A DNA stretch of 64,000 bases. It comes from Desulfolutivibrio sulfoxidireducens. GTDB lineage: Bacteria; Desulfobacterota; Desulfovibrionia; Desulfovibrionales; Desulfovibrionaceae. Under the pieces are notes generated by a model. The model saw only the letters and a list, made by a program, of their open reading frames with translations. It did no database searches and was not told the DNA's origin. Made by a program: the position numbers and the translations under genes. The DNA lies in assembly GCF_013376475.1 (NCBI RefSeq), contig NZ_CP045508.1, forward strand, positions 1,981,501 to 2,045,500, given 5' to 3'. This document shows positions 20,395 to 28,785 of the stretch, piece after piece; positions within the stretch are counted from its first letter, which is position 1; each line of letters opens with the position of its first letter.

Positions 20395-20576
20395 GCGGGC
20401 ATGCTCCCTGGCAGGTCGATTCGCGGCCGTGGGCCAAAAGTCCGATGACGGCGCGGGATCGGCCGAGGATACCCGGGGCGGGCGCGGTTCGCAACGCGGC
20501 GTCCGACCGGGACGGTGGTCCCCCGGTTTGGTTTGGGGAGGGGGTCGCGGCGACGCGCAAAATAACGTGAAGCCCC

Positions 20577-20607
20577 TTGCTTGCCGCGAGTTCGGCATTA
20601 GTATAAA
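20577..20607 (+). promoter_or_regulatory. Candidate promoter of ssrA
   Basis: TATAAA at 20602-20607 lies 12 bases before the mature tmRNA 5' end. A TTGC-containing -35-like stretch (20577-20586) lies 15-19 bases upstream of it. Confidence 0.5.
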
Positions 20608-20619
20608 GAGGTCACGTTT

Positions 20620-20977
20620 GGGGGCGCCCCGGTTTCGACGGGGATGAAGATGCCCAGGTTGCAGGCCGAGGTGCCGCGAGGCCTCGTAAAACACGCGGCA
20701 ACCGGTATAATTGCCAACGACTACGACTACGCCCTGGCTGCTTAAAGACAGCCAGCGTCCCTTTGGCCGACGCCTGATACGCTGAAGTAGGACGCCAACC
20801 CCCATCAGGCTGGCGAATGCCCGTGTCCGCCGGGGCAGACGCGAGACGCAGGTGGACTGGTCCCCTTCCGCCCGGCCGGAAGGCGTGTCGGGGACAAGAA
20901 CAAATCCCGGTCTAAGCCTGTAGACGCCTGGACAAACACGTTCTCGGACGGGGGTTCGACTCCCCCCGCCTCCACCA
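20620..20977 (+). ncRNA. ssrA: Transfer-messenger RNA (tmRNA)
   Basis: A 358-nt tmRNA that rescues stalled ribosomes. The tRNA-like ends are clear: 5' GGGGGCG pairs with 3' CGCCTCC with one G-U pair, followed by A-CCA. The 5' region has GGTTTCGACGGGG, and the T arm is GGGGGTTCGACTCCCCC. The tag reading frame starts at GCC 20713 and encodes ANDYDYALAA, then TAA at 20743-20745. Its 3' end is a classic integration site for mobile islands, and an integrase arm domain lies 165 bases downstream. Confidence 0.97.
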
Positions 20978-20991
20978 ACCAACAATTTCAA

Positions 20992-21035
20992 CAAGTCCCG
21001 CAAGGTCCCAAAAGCCTTGCGGGACTTGGCTTTTT
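20992..21035 (+). terminator. Rho-independent terminator of ssrA
   Basis: A 14-bp perfect stem (CAAGTCCCGCAAGG / CCTTGCGGGACTTG, 9-nt loop) is followed by GCTTTTTG. It begins 15 bases after the tmRNA CCA end. Confidence 0.88.
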
Positions 21036-21141
21036 GTGTCGCAAGGCGCCCCGTGGAATCCCGCAAAGTCTATTGACAGCCCGCGCATGTCGGGGGCAAA
21101 AATGGGGCAAAATTGAACGGTGAGGCCCAAGAGGTGGAATT

Positions 21142-24100
21142 TTGCCCCAACTGACCGAAGTGAAGCTCCGCGCGATCAAGGCCAGCGGCCGCATTGAGCG
21201 TTTCCACGACAGCGCGGGTCTGTATCTGGAACTCAGTGCGGCGGGGGGGAAGTACTGGCGTTGGAAGTATAAATTCGAAGGTAAGGAAAAACGGTTGAGC
21301 TTTGGGGCCTGGCCCCACGTGTCAATAAAGGAGGCCCGGCAACGACGGGACGAGGCACGGAAACTTCTCGCCAACGGAATCGACCCCGGTAAGGCGCGAA
21401 AGGAAGAAAAAGCCGAGATTGCCGCAACCTCTGAAACTTTCGAGAACAATGCCAACAAGTTGTGGACGAATTTCGAGACTGGCCCCATTGAGCTGTCTTC
21501 GACACAGCGACAAGTCATCGAGATTCTTAGAACTGCCAAATCGCAGAAATATTCTTTGGACGACTGGTACCTTGGAGCTATTTATGCGGCAAAGAATACC
21601 TACAACCCCGATCGCTACTCGCAGGCGGCCCAGTCTTTGAGAGAACTTCTGGAAAAACTACCCCGTGTATTTGTTGAGTGTGAGGTTCAAGATACAAAGC
21701 CTTCAAATTTCCAAAACATGAGAGACAAGCTGTGTTCTAGACTGTGTTCTGATAAAGAACGCTATGAAGGAGAATGGAAAGGAAAGATTATTGATTCCGA
21801 TCTGGATGAAACCATCCAGACCGTGGAGGGTTATCTTGATCCGAAACAGACACCCACAAAAAACGGTCAGATACACTCCCTGATGAACAAGCTTGATCCG
21901 ATGCACGACACTTTGGATCAGAGAATTATGCTTGAGAAGTCAAATTATTTCAAAAAATTATGGCAAACATTTAATAAGCTTGCTCATCACAAATCCATCC
22001 CCGATGAGAAGTTCTTTTGGGATCAACTCACTCAGGTCGAACGTCTGATTTTTGATCTGCTGGCCCCGATCACCGCACAGGATCATGGCGCTATTCGAGC
22101 CATTATTTCCAAGCCACATCCTGAACGTGATGATGTTGAAAAACTGCTTGAGTTAATCAAACGTCGTGGGGCAAATTACGCTTTTTTCTTCAAAACGGTA
22201 GACAGTCCAGCCTGGATTCCTCCACTTGCCGAGAAAGGCTTTTTCAAGAATTCATCCACTGGTAAACCTGCAGAAGACGGCCGCCTCATCACACCGCTCT
22301 TGTGGCCTATTTTATACTTGAAGAGAGTTGCCCCGCAATCGCCAGAGCAGGTCGTTGAGATTCTCCTCGGTTTGGGAAAAATGAATAATCCGCGTATCCT
22401 ACATGAAATTTTTTCAATTGCCTGTGATTTGTCGGACGTCGGTCTTTCACTTCGTCTCAAGCCTTTAATTACAAAGTATCTCCAATCTCAATATGGGTGG
22501 GGCGAAGAAGAGCTCATTGTAAACATCCTTCAGAAATGGGGTCGCGAGGCTGGGCCGTCACGTAGTGCTGCGTACCAGATTATTAAGTATGTAATCGCAT
22601 TTCAGCCCGACGCCAAAAAGAACGAAAAACAGCTTCGTCGCAAGGAGAATCCAGGAGCTTGGAACACAGCCCTTGAACCGGCTCCGCGTTTTGAGCAATG
22701 GGAATATCAGCAAATCCTTGAAAAAGGCGTTCGCCCCTTAGCCGAGCGAGAACCCTATCAGGTTGCCCGCATCTTGATTGCCGCAGTTGCAAGCATGATT
22801 CGACTGGGGATGCACCAAGAGGACTTCGATAAAAGGAGAGACGAGGACTATTCTGAAATCTGGTGCCGGAGGTTGGATAAGCCGGATCGCGACTATCAGG
22901 ATGTAAAGGAAACCTTGGTGCAGACACTCGCCCATGCCTGCGAACAGGTTTATGACAAGGCCCCGAAATCCATTGAAGCTCTGGATCAGGCATTACGAAA
23001 CCAACGCTGGAAGGTGTTCAGCCGTTTGCGTCAACAACTTTACGCGGAGCATCCGAATGAACAGACCATGCCGTGGATTCGCGAGCTAATCCTTGGATAT
23101 GATGACTATCCAAATTATAAGTACCACTACGAATTCCAATTGATGATCCGCAAGGCTTGCGAACATTTTGGCCCTCGTTTGCTCAGCCATGATGAACAAA
23201 AACAAATTTTTAATGCCATCCTCAGAGGGCCTTCGAAGGAGATTTTTCTTGAAAGGATGGGTGACAGTTACAGCGAAGAGGCCTTTCAACAACGCCAACG
23301 TTATTTCCACCGAATACAGCTATGTCCATTTTCAAATCTGCTGAGCGGAAGAGTTCAACGTTATTTTAATGAGCTCGACGGAGAAGCACAGAAAGAAGTC
23401 GTTTCCGATGACAGCTATTTTCCCTATGGCGGGGTGACCAGCGGTTATGTCAGCTATCGCAGTCCGAAATCTCCAGAAAAACTTGAAGGCTTTACGGACG
23501 AGGAGCTTCTGAACTATCTGAATGATTGGACCGATGTGCACCGGGACAGGGACAATTGGCTGGTTGAAATCAATTTCTCCGCGCTTGCGGATGCTTTTCA
23601 ATCTTTGTTTAAAGAAAGGATAGTTTCAGACGGCGAGCGTCTGATTTTCTGGATGGCGAACCGTGATAGGATTGTACGGCCGATCTACGTGGCCGCCATG
23701 CTCAAAGCCATGCAGGCACACGTCAAGGACAAGATTTCTGACAACCTGGACCAATGGATTGATTTTTGCGCGTGGGTTTTGTCGCATCCGGACCCGAAGC
23801 GAATTGAAGGACAGCCCGAACCGCGAGAAGAATCACATGAGCATCCGGACTGGGGAAGCTCACGCCGGGCCGTGGTTGATTTTATTGACGCATGTGTGAG
23901 CAAGGACACGGAAGCGCCTGCTTGCGCAAGGGATGGACTCGCCAATCTTCTTCAACAGGTGTGCAATCAGTTTGACTGGCGGCTGGATCACGACCGCCCC
24001 GTACTGCTCAACCGGGATGATCCCATTACCGAGGCCATCAATAATACCCGTAGCAGGGCGCTTGAATCCCTTGTCAATTTTGGTTTCTGGATTCGCCGCC

Positions 24101-25023
24101 ATCTGCCCGAAGATTCCGTTTCGGAAGTAACCGACATCCTTTCACAGCGCGTGGCTGGCAATGCTGAAATCCAGTTAACCCGGCCAGAACATGCGCTATT
24201 GGGGATGCACTTCGGAAATCTCTGTGCGCTCAATCGAGATTGGGCCGTTGAGCACCGAGCACTTCTTTTCCCACAAGGAAATACGCCTGTTTGGCAGGCT
24301 GCTTTTGGCAGCTATATCCGCTACAATCGGTCGTTCAAGGTAACATTTGAAATTTTGCGGGGGGAGTTCGAATACGCGCTTGAGAACCTAGACAAACTGA
24401 CGGCCGCCACAGACGACAGGGGGGAACTTGTTGGCAGGCTGGGCCAGCACCTTTTCACCTACTACCTTTGGGAAGTATATCCTCTGACAGGAGAAGAAAG
24501 CCTGCTTGAGCGCTTTTATGACAAGACCAACGACGATCGGAAATGTTGGGCTCAGCTCTTCGACCATGTTGGTCGCTCACTGAGAATGAGCGGTAAACAT
24601 CTAGAAAAGCCATTGGTTGATCGCGCCATCGCTTATTTCGATTGGCGTTTTAAAGCCGCAGAGCCGCTAGAGCTTCAAGAATTTACTTTTTGGCTGGAAG
24701 CGGAATGCCTCGAACCGGAGTGGCGTTTGCGATCTTACGCAAGGATTCTCGATTTTGAGCGCTGGAAGATTGAGAGGATTTCCATGCAGATGACTACCTT
24801 AACAATGCTACTTTCGGATCACTTGGCATTAGTCGTAGAATGCTTTGCGAAAATTACGGATGCTATGGATCAAGGTGCCAAGATGTACATTTTAGCCAGC
24901 AAGGCCAAGCCTATTTTAAAGGCTGGATTGACTGCCGAAGATCCCCAGGTCCACAAAAATGCTGAACGCGCGCGGGAAAAACTATTGCGGCTCGGTTTCT
25001 TTGAATATCTGGACATGGGATGA
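21142..25023 (+). CDS. Integrase arm-binding domain (DUF4102) fused to large uncharacterised helical protein
   Basis: A 1,293-aa protein from a TTG start with GAGGTGG just upstream. Residues 1-100 match the N-terminal arm-binding domain of P4-type tyrosine integrases (RFHDSAGLYLEL, WRWKYKFEGKEKRLSFG, ARQRRDEARKLLANGIDP, EKAEIAATSETF). No catalytic R-H-R-Y domain follows. Near residue 100-110 (about 21445) GC content drops and an unrelated, mostly helical protein begins. It has an LAHH-containing helix near residue 280, long repeat-like helices, and a C-terminus (LKAGLTAEDPQVHKNAERAREKLL) of the kind seen at the ends of large defence NTPases. No Walker A motif was found. The frame is uninterrupted over 3.9 kb. 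The function is unknown; an anti-phage role is only inferred. It overlaps the next reading frame by four bases. Confidence 0.8.
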   Translation: MPQLTEVKLRAIKASGRIERFHDSAGLYLELSAAGGKYWRWKYKFEGKEKRLSFGAWPHVSIKEARQRRDEARKLLANGIDPGKARKEEKAEIAATSETFENNANKLWTNFETGPIELSSTQRQVIEILRTAKSQKYSLDDWYLGAIYAAKNTYNPDRYSQAAQSLRELLEKLPRVFVECEVQDTKPSNFQNMRDKLCSRLCSDKERYEGEWKGKIIDSDLDETIQTVEGYLDPKQTPTKNGQIHSLMNKLDPMHDTLDQRIMLEKSNYFKKLWQTFNKLAHHKSIPDEKFFWDQLTQVERLIFDLLAPITAQDHGAIRAIISKPHPERDDVEKLLELIKRRGANYAFFFKTVDSPAWIPPLAEKGFFKNSSTGKPAEDGRLITPLLWPILYLKRVAPQSPEQVVEILLGLGKMNNPRILHEIFSIACDLSDVGLSLRLKPLITKYLQSQYGWGEEELIVNILQKWGREAGPSRSAAYQIIKYVIAFQPDAKKNEKQLRRKENPGAWNTALEPAPRFEQWEYQQILEKGVRPLAEREPYQVARILIAAVASMIRLGMHQEDFDKRRDEDYSEIWCRRLDKPDRDYQDVKETLVQTLAHACEQVYDKAPKSIEALDQALRNQRWKVFSRLRQQLYAEHPNEQTMPWIRELILGYDDYPNYKYHYEFQLMIRKACEHFGPRLLSHDEQKQIFNAILRGPSKEIFLERMGDSYSEEAFQQRQRYFHRIQLCPFSNLLSGRVQRYFNELDGEAQKEVVSDDSYFPYGGVTSGYVSYRSPKSPEKLEGFTDEELLNYLNDWTDVHRDRDNWLVEINFSALADAFQSLFKERIVSDGERLIFWMANRDRIVRPIYVAAMLKAMQAHVKDKISDNLDQWIDFCAWVLSHPDPKRIEGQPEPREESHEHPDWGSSRRAVVDFIDACVSKDTEAPACARDGLANLLQQVCNQFDWRLDHDRPVLLNRDDPITEAINNTRSRALESLVNFGFWIRRHLPEDSVSEVTDILSQRVAGNAEIQLTRPEHALLGMHFGNLCALNRDWAVEHRALLFPQGNTPVWQAAFGSYIRYNRSFKVTFEILRGEFEYALENLDKLTAATDDRGELVGRLGQHLFTYYLWEVYPLTGEESLLERFYDKTNDDRKCWAQLFDHVGRSLRMSGKHLEKPLVDRAIAYFDWRFKAAEPLELQEFTFWLEAECLEPEWRLRSYARILDFERWKIERISMQMTTLTMLLSDHLALVVECFAKITDAMDQGAKMYILASKAKPILKAGLTAEDPQVHKNAERAREKLLRLGFFEYLDMG

Positions 25024-25160
25024 AGGGACTTTCACTAAAGTTAAAAAAGTCAGGAATTTCAACGAAGAATCCGGGCCGGATGGTCCGGTTTCCTCCGTTT
25101 TGGTCCAATGATGTCCATCCAGGAAACCGGGCGCGATACACTAAAAAAAAGGAAACGAAA

Positions 25161-26249
25161 GTGGCTTTGAACTTTCCGACCATTACCTACCATCAAGATA
25201 TTTTTTGTCACATTATTAGCGTCGACCCGCTTATTATTGTTGGATTTGGATCTCTTGGCCCAATGCAGCCTGCTATTACATTAAGTGAGGCATTAAAAGA
25301 CAAAAAAGTATATTATATAATGGGATCCTGGTGGACGCTTCAAGACCCTACGGAATTCACAGATGCTATCTATAACTATAAACAACTTACCGAAAGATAC
25401 CCCAACCACAATATCACATACATTGTTTGTGATGAAATAGAAAAAATAATGCTGGATGAATTTAAGATTCCTTGTATATTTTGTCATCAGAATGCATTTA
25501 TAGATGACAAGTTATTCAAAATATACCCTAATACTGAAAAAAAATTTAATGCTATCTATAATGCCAGGGTCGACCCATTCAAGCGGCATCTACTTGCAAA
25601 AAAAATTGACAAAGTTGCATTTATTTACTATAATTGTTCTTACGGTAAAGGTGAGCGCTACTCAAAATTAATCCATCGACTTCTAAAAAATGGAATATTT
25701 CTAAATGACAATCCTCATACAAGTTCGTACAAATATCTTAGTACTTATGAGGTTTGTAGACATTATAATGAATCAAGAGTTGGTTTGTGTCTTTCTGAAA
25801 AGGAAGGCGGCATGTATGTCAGTACTGAATACTTATTATCTGGCTTGCCCGTCGTAACGACTCCTAACATTGGAGGTCGAAACTTTTTTTTTGAAGATGA
25901 ATATTGCCAAATAGCGAAACCAAATTCCTGTGCCATTCGGGATGCTGTGTTAGAATTATCTGCGCGGGATATTTCGCCTGAAAAAATAAGAAAAAAAACT
26001 TTAATTAAGATGCTACACCAGAGAAAAATTTTTTGCAATCTTATACAATCTATTTATGACAAAGAAAATGTTGATCGTAAATTTACAGATGAATGGGACA
26101 CCGTATTCACTCACAGACTTTGTCATTGGATACCAAATTGGCAAGTCATATCATATATTCGAGAGCATGAAGGCTACAAAGGAGCTATAAAAAAAATGTT
26201 AGTTCGAGACGTTAATACTCCATTACCAGACAACTTTGTCTGGATTTAA
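25161..26249 (+). CDS. Glycosyltransferase-like protein, AT-rich
   Basis: About 362 aa from a GTG at 25161 with AAGGAAACG upstream. The frame is also open from ATG 25020, which overlaps the previous stop and would add 47 less convincing residues. The segment EKEGGMYVSTEYLLSGLPVVTTPNIGGR resembles the nucleotide-sugar-binding region of GT-B (family 4-type) glycosyltransferases. The N-terminal half lacks recognisable motifs. Composition is far more AT-rich than anything around it, indicating transfer. Donor and acceptor are unknown. Confidence 0.65.
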   Translation: MALNFPTITYHQDIFCHIISVDPLIIVGFGSLGPMQPAITLSEALKDKKVYYIMGSWWTLQDPTEFTDAIYNYKQLTERYPNHNITYIVCDEIEKIMLDEFKIPCIFCHQNAFIDDKLFKIYPNTEKKFNAIYNARVDPFKRHLLAKKIDKVAFIYYNCSYGKGERYSKLIHRLLKNGIFLNDNPHTSSYKYLSTYEVCRHYNESRVGLCLSEKEGGMYVSTEYLLSGLPVVTTPNIGGRNFFFEDEYCQIAKPNSCAIRDAVLELSARDISPEKIRKKTLIKMLHQRKIFCNLIQSIYDKENVDRKFTDEWDTVFTHRLCHWIPNWQVISYIREHEGYKGAIKKMLVRDVNTPLPDNFVWI

Positions 26250-26367
26250 TTTGGGAAAGGCTCTGTTCCCTTTCGGGGTTGAATTTGGTATCATTTGGTT
26301 CTTCGACGTTCCATGTGGAGAAACTTGGTGATTGATTACGCATGCCTTTCGCTCCTCGCGGGACGGC

Positions 26368-27129
26368 CTAGTCGTTGCCGGCGCTCTTGGGACGCATAAA
26401 CATCCATGTCATGAATTCGGGGCGGAATTCGCATACGGCCAGCCAGCGGTTAAGGCTTGGCATGCCGCGCAGCAGCGCGAAGCGATTTGGGTCGCGCGGC
26501 CCCTCGGGAATGACGTCTATGCGGTGGGATGCCTTGAAGCGTTCGATGAGGGTGTGGCTGATGGAGCGGTTTACGAAGTCGTGGCATTCCACGAGGATGT
26601 TGCAGCGACGAAGGTCTGGGATCGCCGCCGGATTAAGAAGTTCAAGTTCGCAGCCCTCGCAGTCGCAGACCACGGCCGTGCGGCCCGAAGTCGCCAGGAT
26701 TTCGCGCAGGGCCTCCTGGGTGCATAGGCCGCCGACGACCACTCGATCCTGTACCTGATTCAGGGCCGCGTTGCGGCGGCAGAGGTCCTGAGCAGCCTGG
26801 GAGATGTCGAAGGCGCGCGTCACAGCCCCGGGAATGAGCCTGGTCAGGCCCACGGCGTAATAGCCCTCGGCGCATCCGACGTTAACCACCGTCTCGGGCT
26901 GCGCCTTGGACCAAATGTTCAGGCAAGAATGCAGTTCGGCCTCGTAGGTGCCCAGAATCTTGGGGCAGAGATCCCCATCGCCCCAGGAGGAGGCCTGAAG
27001 GATGCGCATGCCTTTAAACGGACCGGTCTGTACCTTGCCTCTTGCCCAGGAGTAGACAGCGGCGGTAATGTCCCCTCTTTTTGCCCCCAGAGCGGCCTTG
27101 AAGAGGGTGGAGATGCTCAATTCGTTCAT
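26368..27129 (-). CDS. SAM-dependent methyltransferase (FkbM-like)
   Basis: A 253-aa protein. Motif I for S-adenosylmethionine is VVNVGCAEGYYAVGL, followed by an acidic strand-2 end (AFDIS) and VVCDCEGCELELL, the FkbM-type motif with DxEG. There is no signal or membrane segment. The substrate is not predictable; FkbM-like enzymes methylate sugars, lipids or peptides. It is convergent with the AT-rich glycosyltransferase gene and has intermediate composition, so it may or may not belong to the island. A 144-base gap separates it from glpK. Confidence 0.8.
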   Translation of the reverse strand: MNELSISTLFKAALGAKRGDITAAVYSWARGKVQTGPFKGMRILQASSWGDGDLCPKILGTYEAELHSCLNIWSKAQPETVVNVGCAEGYYAVGLTRLIPGAVTRAFDISQAAQDLCRRNAALNQVQDRVVVGGLCTQEALREILATSGRTAVVCDCEGCELELLNPAAIPDLRRCNILVECHDFVNRSISHTLIERFKASHRIDVIPEGPRDPNRFALLRGMPSLNRWLAVCEFRPEFMTWMFMRPKSAGND

Positions 27130-27273
27130 GAAAACAACTCCTTGGAATGACGAACGTTTCGATCGCGGAATACGTTTACAATTTTATGCAAGATATGATC
27201 CATTTTATGGTAGGGGTGGGGTCCTCGATTGAGGACCATAGCTTGACCGACTGTCCAATTTTTCGCGACCACC

Positions 27274-28785
27274 TCACTCCACCCAGTTGAGAGTGCGCTC
27301 CACGGCCTTTTTCCAGCCCCGATAGCCCGCCTCCCTGGTCTCGGCGGTCATTCTCGGCTCAAAGATCCGGTCCACCGCCCAGTTCTTGCAAAGCTCCCGG
27401 GTGTCCCGCCAAAAACCCACGGCCAACCCGGCGGCATAGGCCGCGCCAAGGCAGGTGGTTTCCGAAACCATGGGCCGAATGACCGGCACGTCCAGAATGT
27501 CGGCCTGGAACTGCATGAGCAGCTCGTTGTGCACCATCCCGCCATCCACCTTGAGCTTTGTCAGCTCCACCCCGGAATCCTTGTTCATGGCCTCCACGAT
27601 GTCCTTGGTCTGGTAGGCGCAGGCCTCGAGCACCGCCCGGGCGATATGGTTCCTTGTGGCGTAGCGGGTCAGGCCCACGATGGCCCCCCGGGCGTCCGAA
27701 CGCCAATAGGGCGCGAAAAGCCCGGAAAAGGCCGGCACGATGTACACCCCGCCGTTGTCCTCGGCGTGCAGGGCCAGGCGTTCGATCTCCGGGGCGGCCT
27801 TGATCAGGCCCAGATTGTCGCGCACCCACTGCACCAATGCCCCGGCAATGGCCACCGAGCCCTCCAGGCAGTAGACCGGATCGTTGTTCCCGAGCTTGTA
27901 GGCCAGGGTGGTGATCAGGCCGTGGCGGGAGGGAATGGGGGTGGTCCCGGTGTTGAGCAACAGGAAGCAGCCCGTGCCGTAGGTGTTTTTGGCCTCGCCG
28001 GGCTCGAAGCAGGTCTGGCCCACCAGGGCCGCCTGCTGGTCGCCAAGGGCCCCGCACACCGGCACCCTGGCCCCAAGCGGCCCGTCCTCCATGGTCGGCC
28101 CCCAGGATGCGGCGTCGCTCGAAGGCACGATGCGCGGCAGGCCCTGGCGCGGAATGTCCAGCACGTCCAGGATGTCGGCGTCCCATTGCAGGGTGGCCAG
28201 GTCCATGAGCATGGTCCGGCTGGCGTTGGTCACGTCGGTGACGTGGGCCCCTCCCCGGGGACCGCCGGTCAACCACCAGATGATCCAGGACTCCATGGTC
28301 CCGAAAAGGGCCTCTCCGGCCTCGGCGGCCCGCCGGGCCTCGGGGACGTGGGTAAGAATCCATGTGATCTTGGGGCCGCTGAAATAGGTGGCCACGGGCA
28401 ACCCGGTCTTGGCCCGGAAGCGGTCCGGACCGCCGTCCGCGATGAGCGCCTCGCAGATGTCCCGGGTCCGGGCGCACTGCCAGACGATGGCGTTATAATA
28501 GGGGCGGCCCGTGCGCCGGTCCCAGACCACCACGGTCTCGCGCTGGTTGGTGATGCCCAGGGCGGAAAGATCCGCGCCGGTGATCCCGGCCTTGCGCAGG
28601 GCCCCGGCGATGACCTCCTGGGTGTTTTCCCAGATCTCCATGGGGTCGTGCTCCACATGGCCCGGCTGGGGAAAAATCTGGCGGTGTTCCTTCTGGTCCA
28701 TGGCCACGATGCGTCCGGCGGCGTCGAAGATGATGAACCGGGACGAGGTCGTGCCCTGGTCCACGGCGCCGATGTATCCGCCCAT
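27274..28785 (-). CDS. glpK: Glycerol kinase
   Basis: Phosphorylates glycerol to sn-glycerol 3-phosphate using ATP. The 503-aa FGGY-family protein starts [11 protein letters not shown] (phosphate loop), with the substrate strand [17 protein letters not shown]. The second signature is [24 protein letters not shown] precedes the ATG. It is the last gene of the glpAB-hdr-glpK run on this strand and lies 105 bases after the HdrB-like gene. It feeds the dehydrogenase encoded upstream. Confidence 0.97.

Follow-up and report, generated by a model that had tools for sequence, protein, structure and literature searches.

The stretch of Desulfolutivibrio sulfoxidireducens DNA analysed here (contig NZ_CP045508.1, positions 1,981,501 to 2,045,500; 64,000 nucleotides, hereafter the window) carries a long gene in which the start of a tyrosine integrase is joined in frame to a protein related to DSR1 (defense-associated sirtuin 1). 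The gene is an open frame of 1,293 codons (21142-25023, + strand) with a TTG start and zero internal stops. It follows the intact gene of the transfer-messenger RNA (tmRNA, ssrA), located by ARAGORN at 20620..20977 on the same strand, and 164 bases separate the end of the tmRNA from the start codon. A preliminary description of the locus, made from the sequence alone, had noted the uninterrupted frame beside the tmRNA and a drop in guanine-cytosine (GC) content within it. Both observations hold, the GC content being 0.577 in the integrase part and 0.483 in the remainder. A chance open frame is ruled out by an 80-bit domain match and by 60-74% identity to close relatives.

The integrase-derived N-terminus and the junction

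The integrase-derived N-terminus (21142..21444, +) was delimited with Pfam and an alignment of integrases and comprises the TTG start, the arm-binding domain and the stretch up to residue 101. Residues 4-89 match PF13356 (Arm-DNA-bind_3) with an E-value of 1.2e-22 and 80.3 bits for a cut-off of 27, which bears out the DUF4102 domain recognised earlier; this is the only frame of the 4.16-Mb genome with a PF13356 match. The closest solved structures to the N-terminal domain, 3ju0 and 3jtz, are both integrase arm domains. The domain is intact, with one of 28 conserved columns changed as compared with 0-4 among 29 integrase loci of the family. No integrase match was obtained past residue 109 with Pfam or NCBIfam, i.e. 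the catalytic domain is absent, as had been stated.

Matching arm domains were found at eight viral loci, on contigs 40-61 kb long. Five of them (L094-L098) start with an integrase of 396-401 amino acids (aa) that shares the identical TTG start and has an arm domain 76-83% identical to that of the window; the remaining three are 46-53% identical. A tmRNA gene is also present at nine of the 29 other integrase loci. On this sequence evidence, an ssrA/tRNA-class integrase of phage or phage-like type most likely supplied the N-terminus. Among the 150 family matches listed for the first 118 residues, the other 149 sit in frames of 96-563 aa, which rejects long frames as the usual state of arm domains. 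Three short arm-domain frames (L018, L030 and L037) were considered as extra fusions and rejected by eye as broken integrases, since integrase similarity resumes past the break.

Likeness to the 29 integrase loci is clear up to residue 101 (the motif TFE at 99-101) and extends at most to residue 111. The junction, which had been put at about residue 105, is thus a zone covering residues 101-111 (21442..21474, +), the integrase codons stopping at or after the first TTCGAGA. The DNA from GAGACTGGCCCCAT (21475 onward) matches the relative L063, so that the native protein was kept almost entirely and joined in frame; at the join the window protein reads ...NFETGPIEL and L063 ...LLETGPIEL. The open frame of L063 reaches further upstream, with no arm domain in that part, and the relatives' own first residues differ among themselves ahead of the join point.

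The DSR1-like body

The long part consists of a helical module (residues ~112-321; 21475..22104, +), delimited from a sub-threshold PF18165 match and from the relatives and presumed to be an effector, and of a DSR1-like alpha-solenoid of ~970 residues (22105..25023, +), delimited with PADLOC Dsr1 and AlphaFold2 and presumed to be a sensor. The PADLOC DSR1 profile (PDLC04166) matches residues 511-1128 with an E-value of 1.4e-20, a partial match spanning profile positions 498-1060 of 1,227. The C-terminus had previously been likened to large anti-phage NTPases. The anti-phage part of that assignment agrees with the profile match; as to the NTPase part, no Walker A motif (0 matches to G....GK[ST] in 1,293 residues, in line with the preliminary description) and no ATPase domain in Pfam were found in the window protein. 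DSR1 is not known to be a Walker-type NTPase. A SIR2 domain is likewise absent from the window protein in Pfam searches at E-values up to 1.

In an AlphaFold2 model built with 11 sequences (mean predicted local distance difference test score, pLDDT, 71; predicted TM-score 0.44), the first 200 residues are of low confidence; at about residue 200 of the model a long alpha-solenoid sets in, mostly with pLDDT 60-94. Structure matches of the solenoid in the PDB are HEAT-type solenoids. Avs4 (8dgf) was matched with a Z-score of 10.2, within the general range of helical solenoids, and a root-mean-square deviation (rmsd) of 8.4 Å over 583 residues, and three matches with longer alignments have rmsd values of 25-31 Å. 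DSR2 was not among the best 50 structure matches, which carries no weight either way. A sequence search of solved structures returned four matches at E-values up to 1, the best two being designed repeat proteins, and no DSR2 or Avs chain. The long part had no match in phages at an E-value of 1e-5 and four weak haloarchaeal matches in plasmids (20.4-26.9% identity). None was found in viral contigs with peptide patterns taken from a single protein, which detect close relatives only.

The helical module scores 22.1 bits against PF18165 (pP_pnuc_1, pPIWI-associated nuclease), below the cut-off of 26.3 (23.9 for the best relative, L066), and 15.1 bits against HEPN_Swt1, below the cut-off of 27.5. 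The HEPN protein 4nqf was matched by the low-confidence model of the module with a Z-score of 6.2, amid unrelated bundles. By eye, a candidate R-x4-H motif ('PTRKEQIH' and like), looked for because HEPN ribonucleases have R-x4-6-H, is present in four of six aligned module sequences, L066 having R-x4-K, and an HH pair without an R just ahead is invariant in all six. Given the absence of SIR2, the output of the protein must differ from that of DSR1. Most likely it would be a nuclease residing in the helical module.

Relatives of the long part

The long part can be aligned over its whole length with relatives of 1,207-1,286 aa. It is 60% identical to L003 (record titled Synergistaceae), 66 and 74% to the two pieces of L004 (record titled Desulfobulbaceae) and 74% to a fragment, L005 (record titled Deltaproteobacteria). 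Only one of the 288 genomes of the family, the own genome, encodes the protein, and 15 of the 395 genomes of the phylum have matches, the own included. The order of G314 holds a match in one of 24 genomes, G314 itself. In the order of G444 four of 291 genomes have one, G444 included, G884 and G915 having C-terminal fragments only. PADLOC assigned Dsr1 to the relatives L003 (E-value 7.6e-27), L062 (4.5e-17), L064 (1.8e-25), L067 (1.2e-53) and L068 (5.4e-55).

It had been proposed that the fusion might be a stable, selected architecture that recurs in distant genomes. This idea found no support: PF13356 is absent from all nine relatives scanned with Pfam (L003, the L004 fragment, L062, L063, L064, L088, L066, L067 and L068), as well as from the front genes that stand apart from the solenoid gene in L066, L067 and L068. 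The protein was not found in the other members of the 288 family genomes, and the fusion is absent from the seven other phylum genomes examined among those with matches (G444, G314, G505, G528, G655, G590 and G337), the G528 copy being a fragment without front and G528 probably the same record as L005. The outcome that had been named beforehand as speaking against a widespread architecture is thus the one observed, i.e. relatives alignable from about residue 112 and a fusion restricted to this genome. With the arm domain missing in nine of nine relatives and the other 149 listed arm-domain frames being short, the junction is unique to this genome in everything searched.

The part of the relatives that can be aligned with the window protein begins at about window residue 112 in L003, L004, L062 and L063, which carry the same front module of ~200 residues with its sub-threshold PF18165 match. 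Within the phylum the module occurs in four of 395 genomes (the own, G314, G444 and G655), always ahead of this solenoid. A like module, 31% identical, is encoded in L066 by a 220-aa gene of its own directly before the solenoid gene. L064 and L088 have a PIN_12 domain in place of the module, and L067 and L068, whose solenoid is 20-23% identical to that of the window, have a separate SIR2_2 gene. The front parts of these DSR1-type solenoid proteins are exchangeable (helical module, PIN or SIR2), which resembles effector-plus-sensor defence proteins. By this analogy the front part would act as effector, with the solenoid as its sensor.

Three of the nine relatives with flanking DNA lie inside a type I restriction operon, close to hsdS. 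The order is hsdM, a PDDEXK-like nuclease (by eye), hsdS and the solenoid relative in L004; the end of hsdR, hsdM, YhcG/DUF1016, hsdS, an AAA ATPase and the solenoid relative in L062; and hsdR, hsdM, one gene that matches nothing in Pfam, hsdS, the module gene and the solenoid gene in L066. No type I restriction operon was seen by eye in the open-frame lists of L003, L064, L067, L068 and L088, part of whose genes were scanned. DSR1-like solenoid genes inside such operons at three loci suggest a possible guard arrangement. Genes for a helicase of the ResIII type and for an M48 peptidase precede the solenoid gene in L063. A RhuM-family gene follows the solenoid gene in L063 (L063:12397-13494, Pfam) and a C-terminal fragment in L086 (L086:1919 onwards, by eye). 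The own genome probably encodes type I restriction at another place, to judge by three HsdM-type genes at G000:C1:3420445-3451426, ~1.4 Mb from the fusion.

Arm-type repeats and putative promoter

Two direct repeats GGGGCAAAA (21093-21101 and 21104-21112, +) precede the fused gene, and a repeat search identified an inverted copy (TTTTGCCCC on the + strand) at 21140..21148 on the - strand, overlapping the start codon. They are predicted to be integrase arm-type sites and an operator. A trio of two direct repeats and one inverted repeat was detected in the window and at 19 of 28 other integrase loci (29 were fetched and L030 was left out), as compared with 51 of 2,900 single-base shuffles (1.8%). 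The repeat sequence of the trio varies from integrase to integrase (loci L009-L037), and the collection of trios upstream of these integrases is a ready set for matching arm domains to DNA sites. The GGGGCAAAA pair itself is present in L009, L010, L011 and L014, four of the five loci nearest in arm domain (58.9-78.6%), the exception being L013. It occurs in none of the 23 remaining integrase loci, L026 holding a single copy. A TTGACA at 21073..21078 (+), with no good -10 found, is a possible -35 element of the integrase promoter, its position being common to related integrases: relative to the start codon, the same hexamer lies at -69/-70 in L009, L010 and L014, and TTGATA does so in L011.

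The GGGGCAAAA pair has one place in the genome, in the window, and the exact 21-mer was retrieved from four viral contigs. In one of them, L092, a GGGGCAAA-type pair is followed by a core corresponding to the tmRNA end, the GGGGCAAAA trio and ~16 codons of the same integrase as in the window, after which both similarity and frame end. The order is like that of an attP, the integrase start being broken. The region L092:2690-3012 is either a broken integrase or an assembly join. The viral contigs L090, L091 and L093 gave no arm-domain match within the DNA examined.

The expected attachment core in the window is formed by the final 23 bases of the tmRNA gene (20955-20977, +), its 3' end. This end is single-copy in the genome at up to 3 mismatches, with no second copy in the window either, and a repeat search across 20500-27400 gave nothing convincing as attR. 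A sequence scan located a terminator-like hairpin with a T run after the tmRNA (20992..21028, +); two such sites occur in the window for 1.1 expected. By eye, similar hairpins precede several related integrases, and one is also found in the viral contig L092.

A second arm-domain fusion

The Klebsiella pneumoniae plasmid OW970024.1 has a 250-aa open frame (L084:4878-5630), annotated as EcoR124II R protein, in which the latter part of HSDR_N (positions 105-197 of the 198 of the profile) is fused in frame to an arm domain (PF13356 with 70.7 bits). The following gene presumably encodes an IS110-type transposase, which it resembles by eye. Among the 40 plasmid matches listed, 16 carry at least 80% of the 214-residue query and the other 24 its first 156 residues. 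It is a truncated HsdR, apparently of one lineage, and sets a precedent for the joining process rather than for the architecture. Since it surfaced in a sample of 60 records from each of two sets, 503 from plasmids and 288 from phages, further such fusions may exist. No arm domain (DUF4102 or integrase) fused to a defence protein was found in the open-licence PMC literature.

Origin of the fusion and other explanations

The explanation that we favour, and regard as rather probable, is a one-off in-frame junction of an integrase end with a complete DSR1-like gene, placed under an autoregulated integrase promoter by loss of the element. An integrated phage or island would have contributed its left end, i.e. 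the ssrA core, the arm sites, the integrase promoter and the first ~100-110 integrase codons. Loss of the rest of the element would have joined this left end in frame to nearly the first codon of the DSR1-like gene. A deletion joining an integrase start to the remains of a defence gene had been suggested before; the deletion-type junction fits, and 'remains' does not, the body being complete when compared with its relatives of 1,207-1,286 aa. Translation would begin at the integrase start, and the C-terminal solenoid of the fused protein would recognise a phage component and switch on the N-terminal helical module, which would then stop the phage from growing, whether or not the cell is lost. 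The arm domain would still bind the GGGGCAAAA repeats over its own promoter and start codon, autorepression keeping the gene low. As self-repression is predicted for integrases with attL over their promoter and was shown in tested cases, expression is expected to be low and self-limited, with a DSR1-like response to infection. If true, a single deletion has let a decaying prophage end pass on to a defence gene a promoter, a ribosome-binding site and an operator together with the DNA-binding domain that matches them.

The fused gene is probably functional, as far as sequence can tell. The nonsynonymous (dN) and synonymous (dS) divergences of the body are 0.17 and 1.20 from L062, 0.20 and 1.05 from L063 and 0.28 and 2.2 from L003, values that point to purifying selection. 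Relative-rate tests with L003 as outgroup, in which unique changes were counted, gave 100 changes for the window protein and 119 for L063 (chi-square 1.65) and, over the body, 87 and 106 for L064 (chi-square 1.87). Several observations weigh against a regulated and working fusion. The dS values are near or at saturation, and the selection measured on the body mostly predates the fusion. The window protein evolved faster than L062 (115 versus 76 changes, chi-square 7.96). Upstream of the frame, a consensus scan detected no sigma-70 promoter, and the repeat trio is missing, by the rule used, in nine of the 28 other integrase loci. The model of the helical module, with a mean pLDDT of 62, is too poor to name a fold. 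The window has K-x4-H (by eye) where four of six sequences have R-x4-H, and the module may be weakened by this K in place of R. The rates and the intact arm domain are compatible both with a working protein and with a fusion of recent date.

The fusion could also be a functionless scar, in which a recent deletion left the frame open by luck and the useless protein is headed for decay. We judge this unlikely, though it deserves real weight: the restriction of the fusion to one genome, the missing attR, the faster rate relative to L062 and the substituted arginine all agree with it, and the truncated Klebsiella fusion illustrates that such joins arise as debris. A scar is harder to reconcile with 1,293 codons free of stops and frameshifts, with a body evolving no faster than L063 or L064, with the intactness of the arm domain and with a join at the extreme edge of the defence protein that spared almost all of it. 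There is a small chance that the arm domain acts as a sensor of rival mobile elements through phage-borne GGGGCAAAA sites, either because titration of the fusion off its own operator raises expression at the moment when such a phage replicates or because the fusion blocks the integrase promoter of an incoming attP and thereby lysogeny as well. This idea stems from the four viral contigs with the identical 21-base pair and from the five with arm domains 76-83% identical.

Translation from an internal start near the junction would make the arm domain irrelevant to the function of the defence protein. The in-frame TTG at 21460-21462 (residue 107) lies near where the relatives begin and could serve as such a start, which seems doubtful as no clear ribosome-binding site is visible by eye ahead of it and the start regions of the relatives are not preserved in the window. 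Hardly any credence is left for a stable recurrent architecture in which an att-site-reading domain would belong to the regular make-up of a defence protein. The arm/HSDR_N fusion of Klebsiella plasmids is one further arm/defence-gene case, concerning a different, truncated protein, and a recurrent architecture is at odds with the nine relatives devoid of arm domain and with the short frames of the other 149 listed arm-domain matches.

Comparison with known systems

The solenoid profile match relates the window protein to DSR1, and in the relatives L067 and L068 a SIR2 gene accompanies a similar solenoid. The window protein differs from DSR1 in the lack of SIR2, in the different helical module in front and in the integrase arm domain at its N-terminus. 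DSR1 and DSR2 act by SIR2 NADase activity and DSR1, unlike DSR2, halts the phage without cell death, according to an excerpt of PMC10952713. With the P4-type and IntSXT tyrosine integrases, as far as they are presented in an extract of PMC8138268, the locus has in common the DUF4102 arm domain, the TTG start, the arm-site trio and the position next to ssrA; in contrast to them, the window protein has lost the catalytic domain and cannot recombine DNA.

For integrase genes that follow a tRNA gene in the same direction, attL lies over the promoter, and self-repression was predicted and was shown in the cases tested, as stated in a portion of PMC2951348. The intS gene of KplE1, described in that same portion, shares with the window an RNA gene and an integrase start in the same direction and arm-type repeats over the promoter region. 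The window product differs in being a defence-type protein, and the repeats are here sites predicted from sequence. PrrC is genetically linked to a type I restriction enzyme (PMC2610378, in part), and the relatives L004, L062 and L066 resemble such guards by their place inside type I restriction operons. This likeness is one of gene setting, and the window protein has no ATPase domain in Pfam and lies outside any type I restriction operon. No report of a sirtuin together with type I restriction was found in the open-licence PMC literature.

The post-tmRNA site in the genus

Two sister species of the genus were compared with the window. Their tmRNA is 93% identical and the content downstream is different. 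In G034 (L075:15223-17391) the gene after the tmRNA encodes 722 aa with two domains above cut-off, NERD and SEC-C. In G033 (L076:12179-16804) it encodes 1,541 aa, for which NACHT and AAA_16 score under the cut-offs. PADLOC gave only weak C-terminal matches for the 722-aa protein (best E-value 5e-6) and none for the 1,541-aa protein. A distinct large gene thus occupies the site in three of three species, in the direction of the tmRNA each time, and the site may be a hotspot at which large genes of defence type turn over. An ssrA-flanking defence hotspot, cDHS2, is mentioned for Pseudomonas aeruginosa in a section of PMC10250203; it likewise holds defence-type genes beside ssrA, in another bacterium and with other genes. 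Downstream of the fusion, a glycosyltransferase-like open frame (25020-26249; GC 0.36; Pfam matches under the cut-offs) begins with an ATG that overlaps the stop codon of the fused gene.

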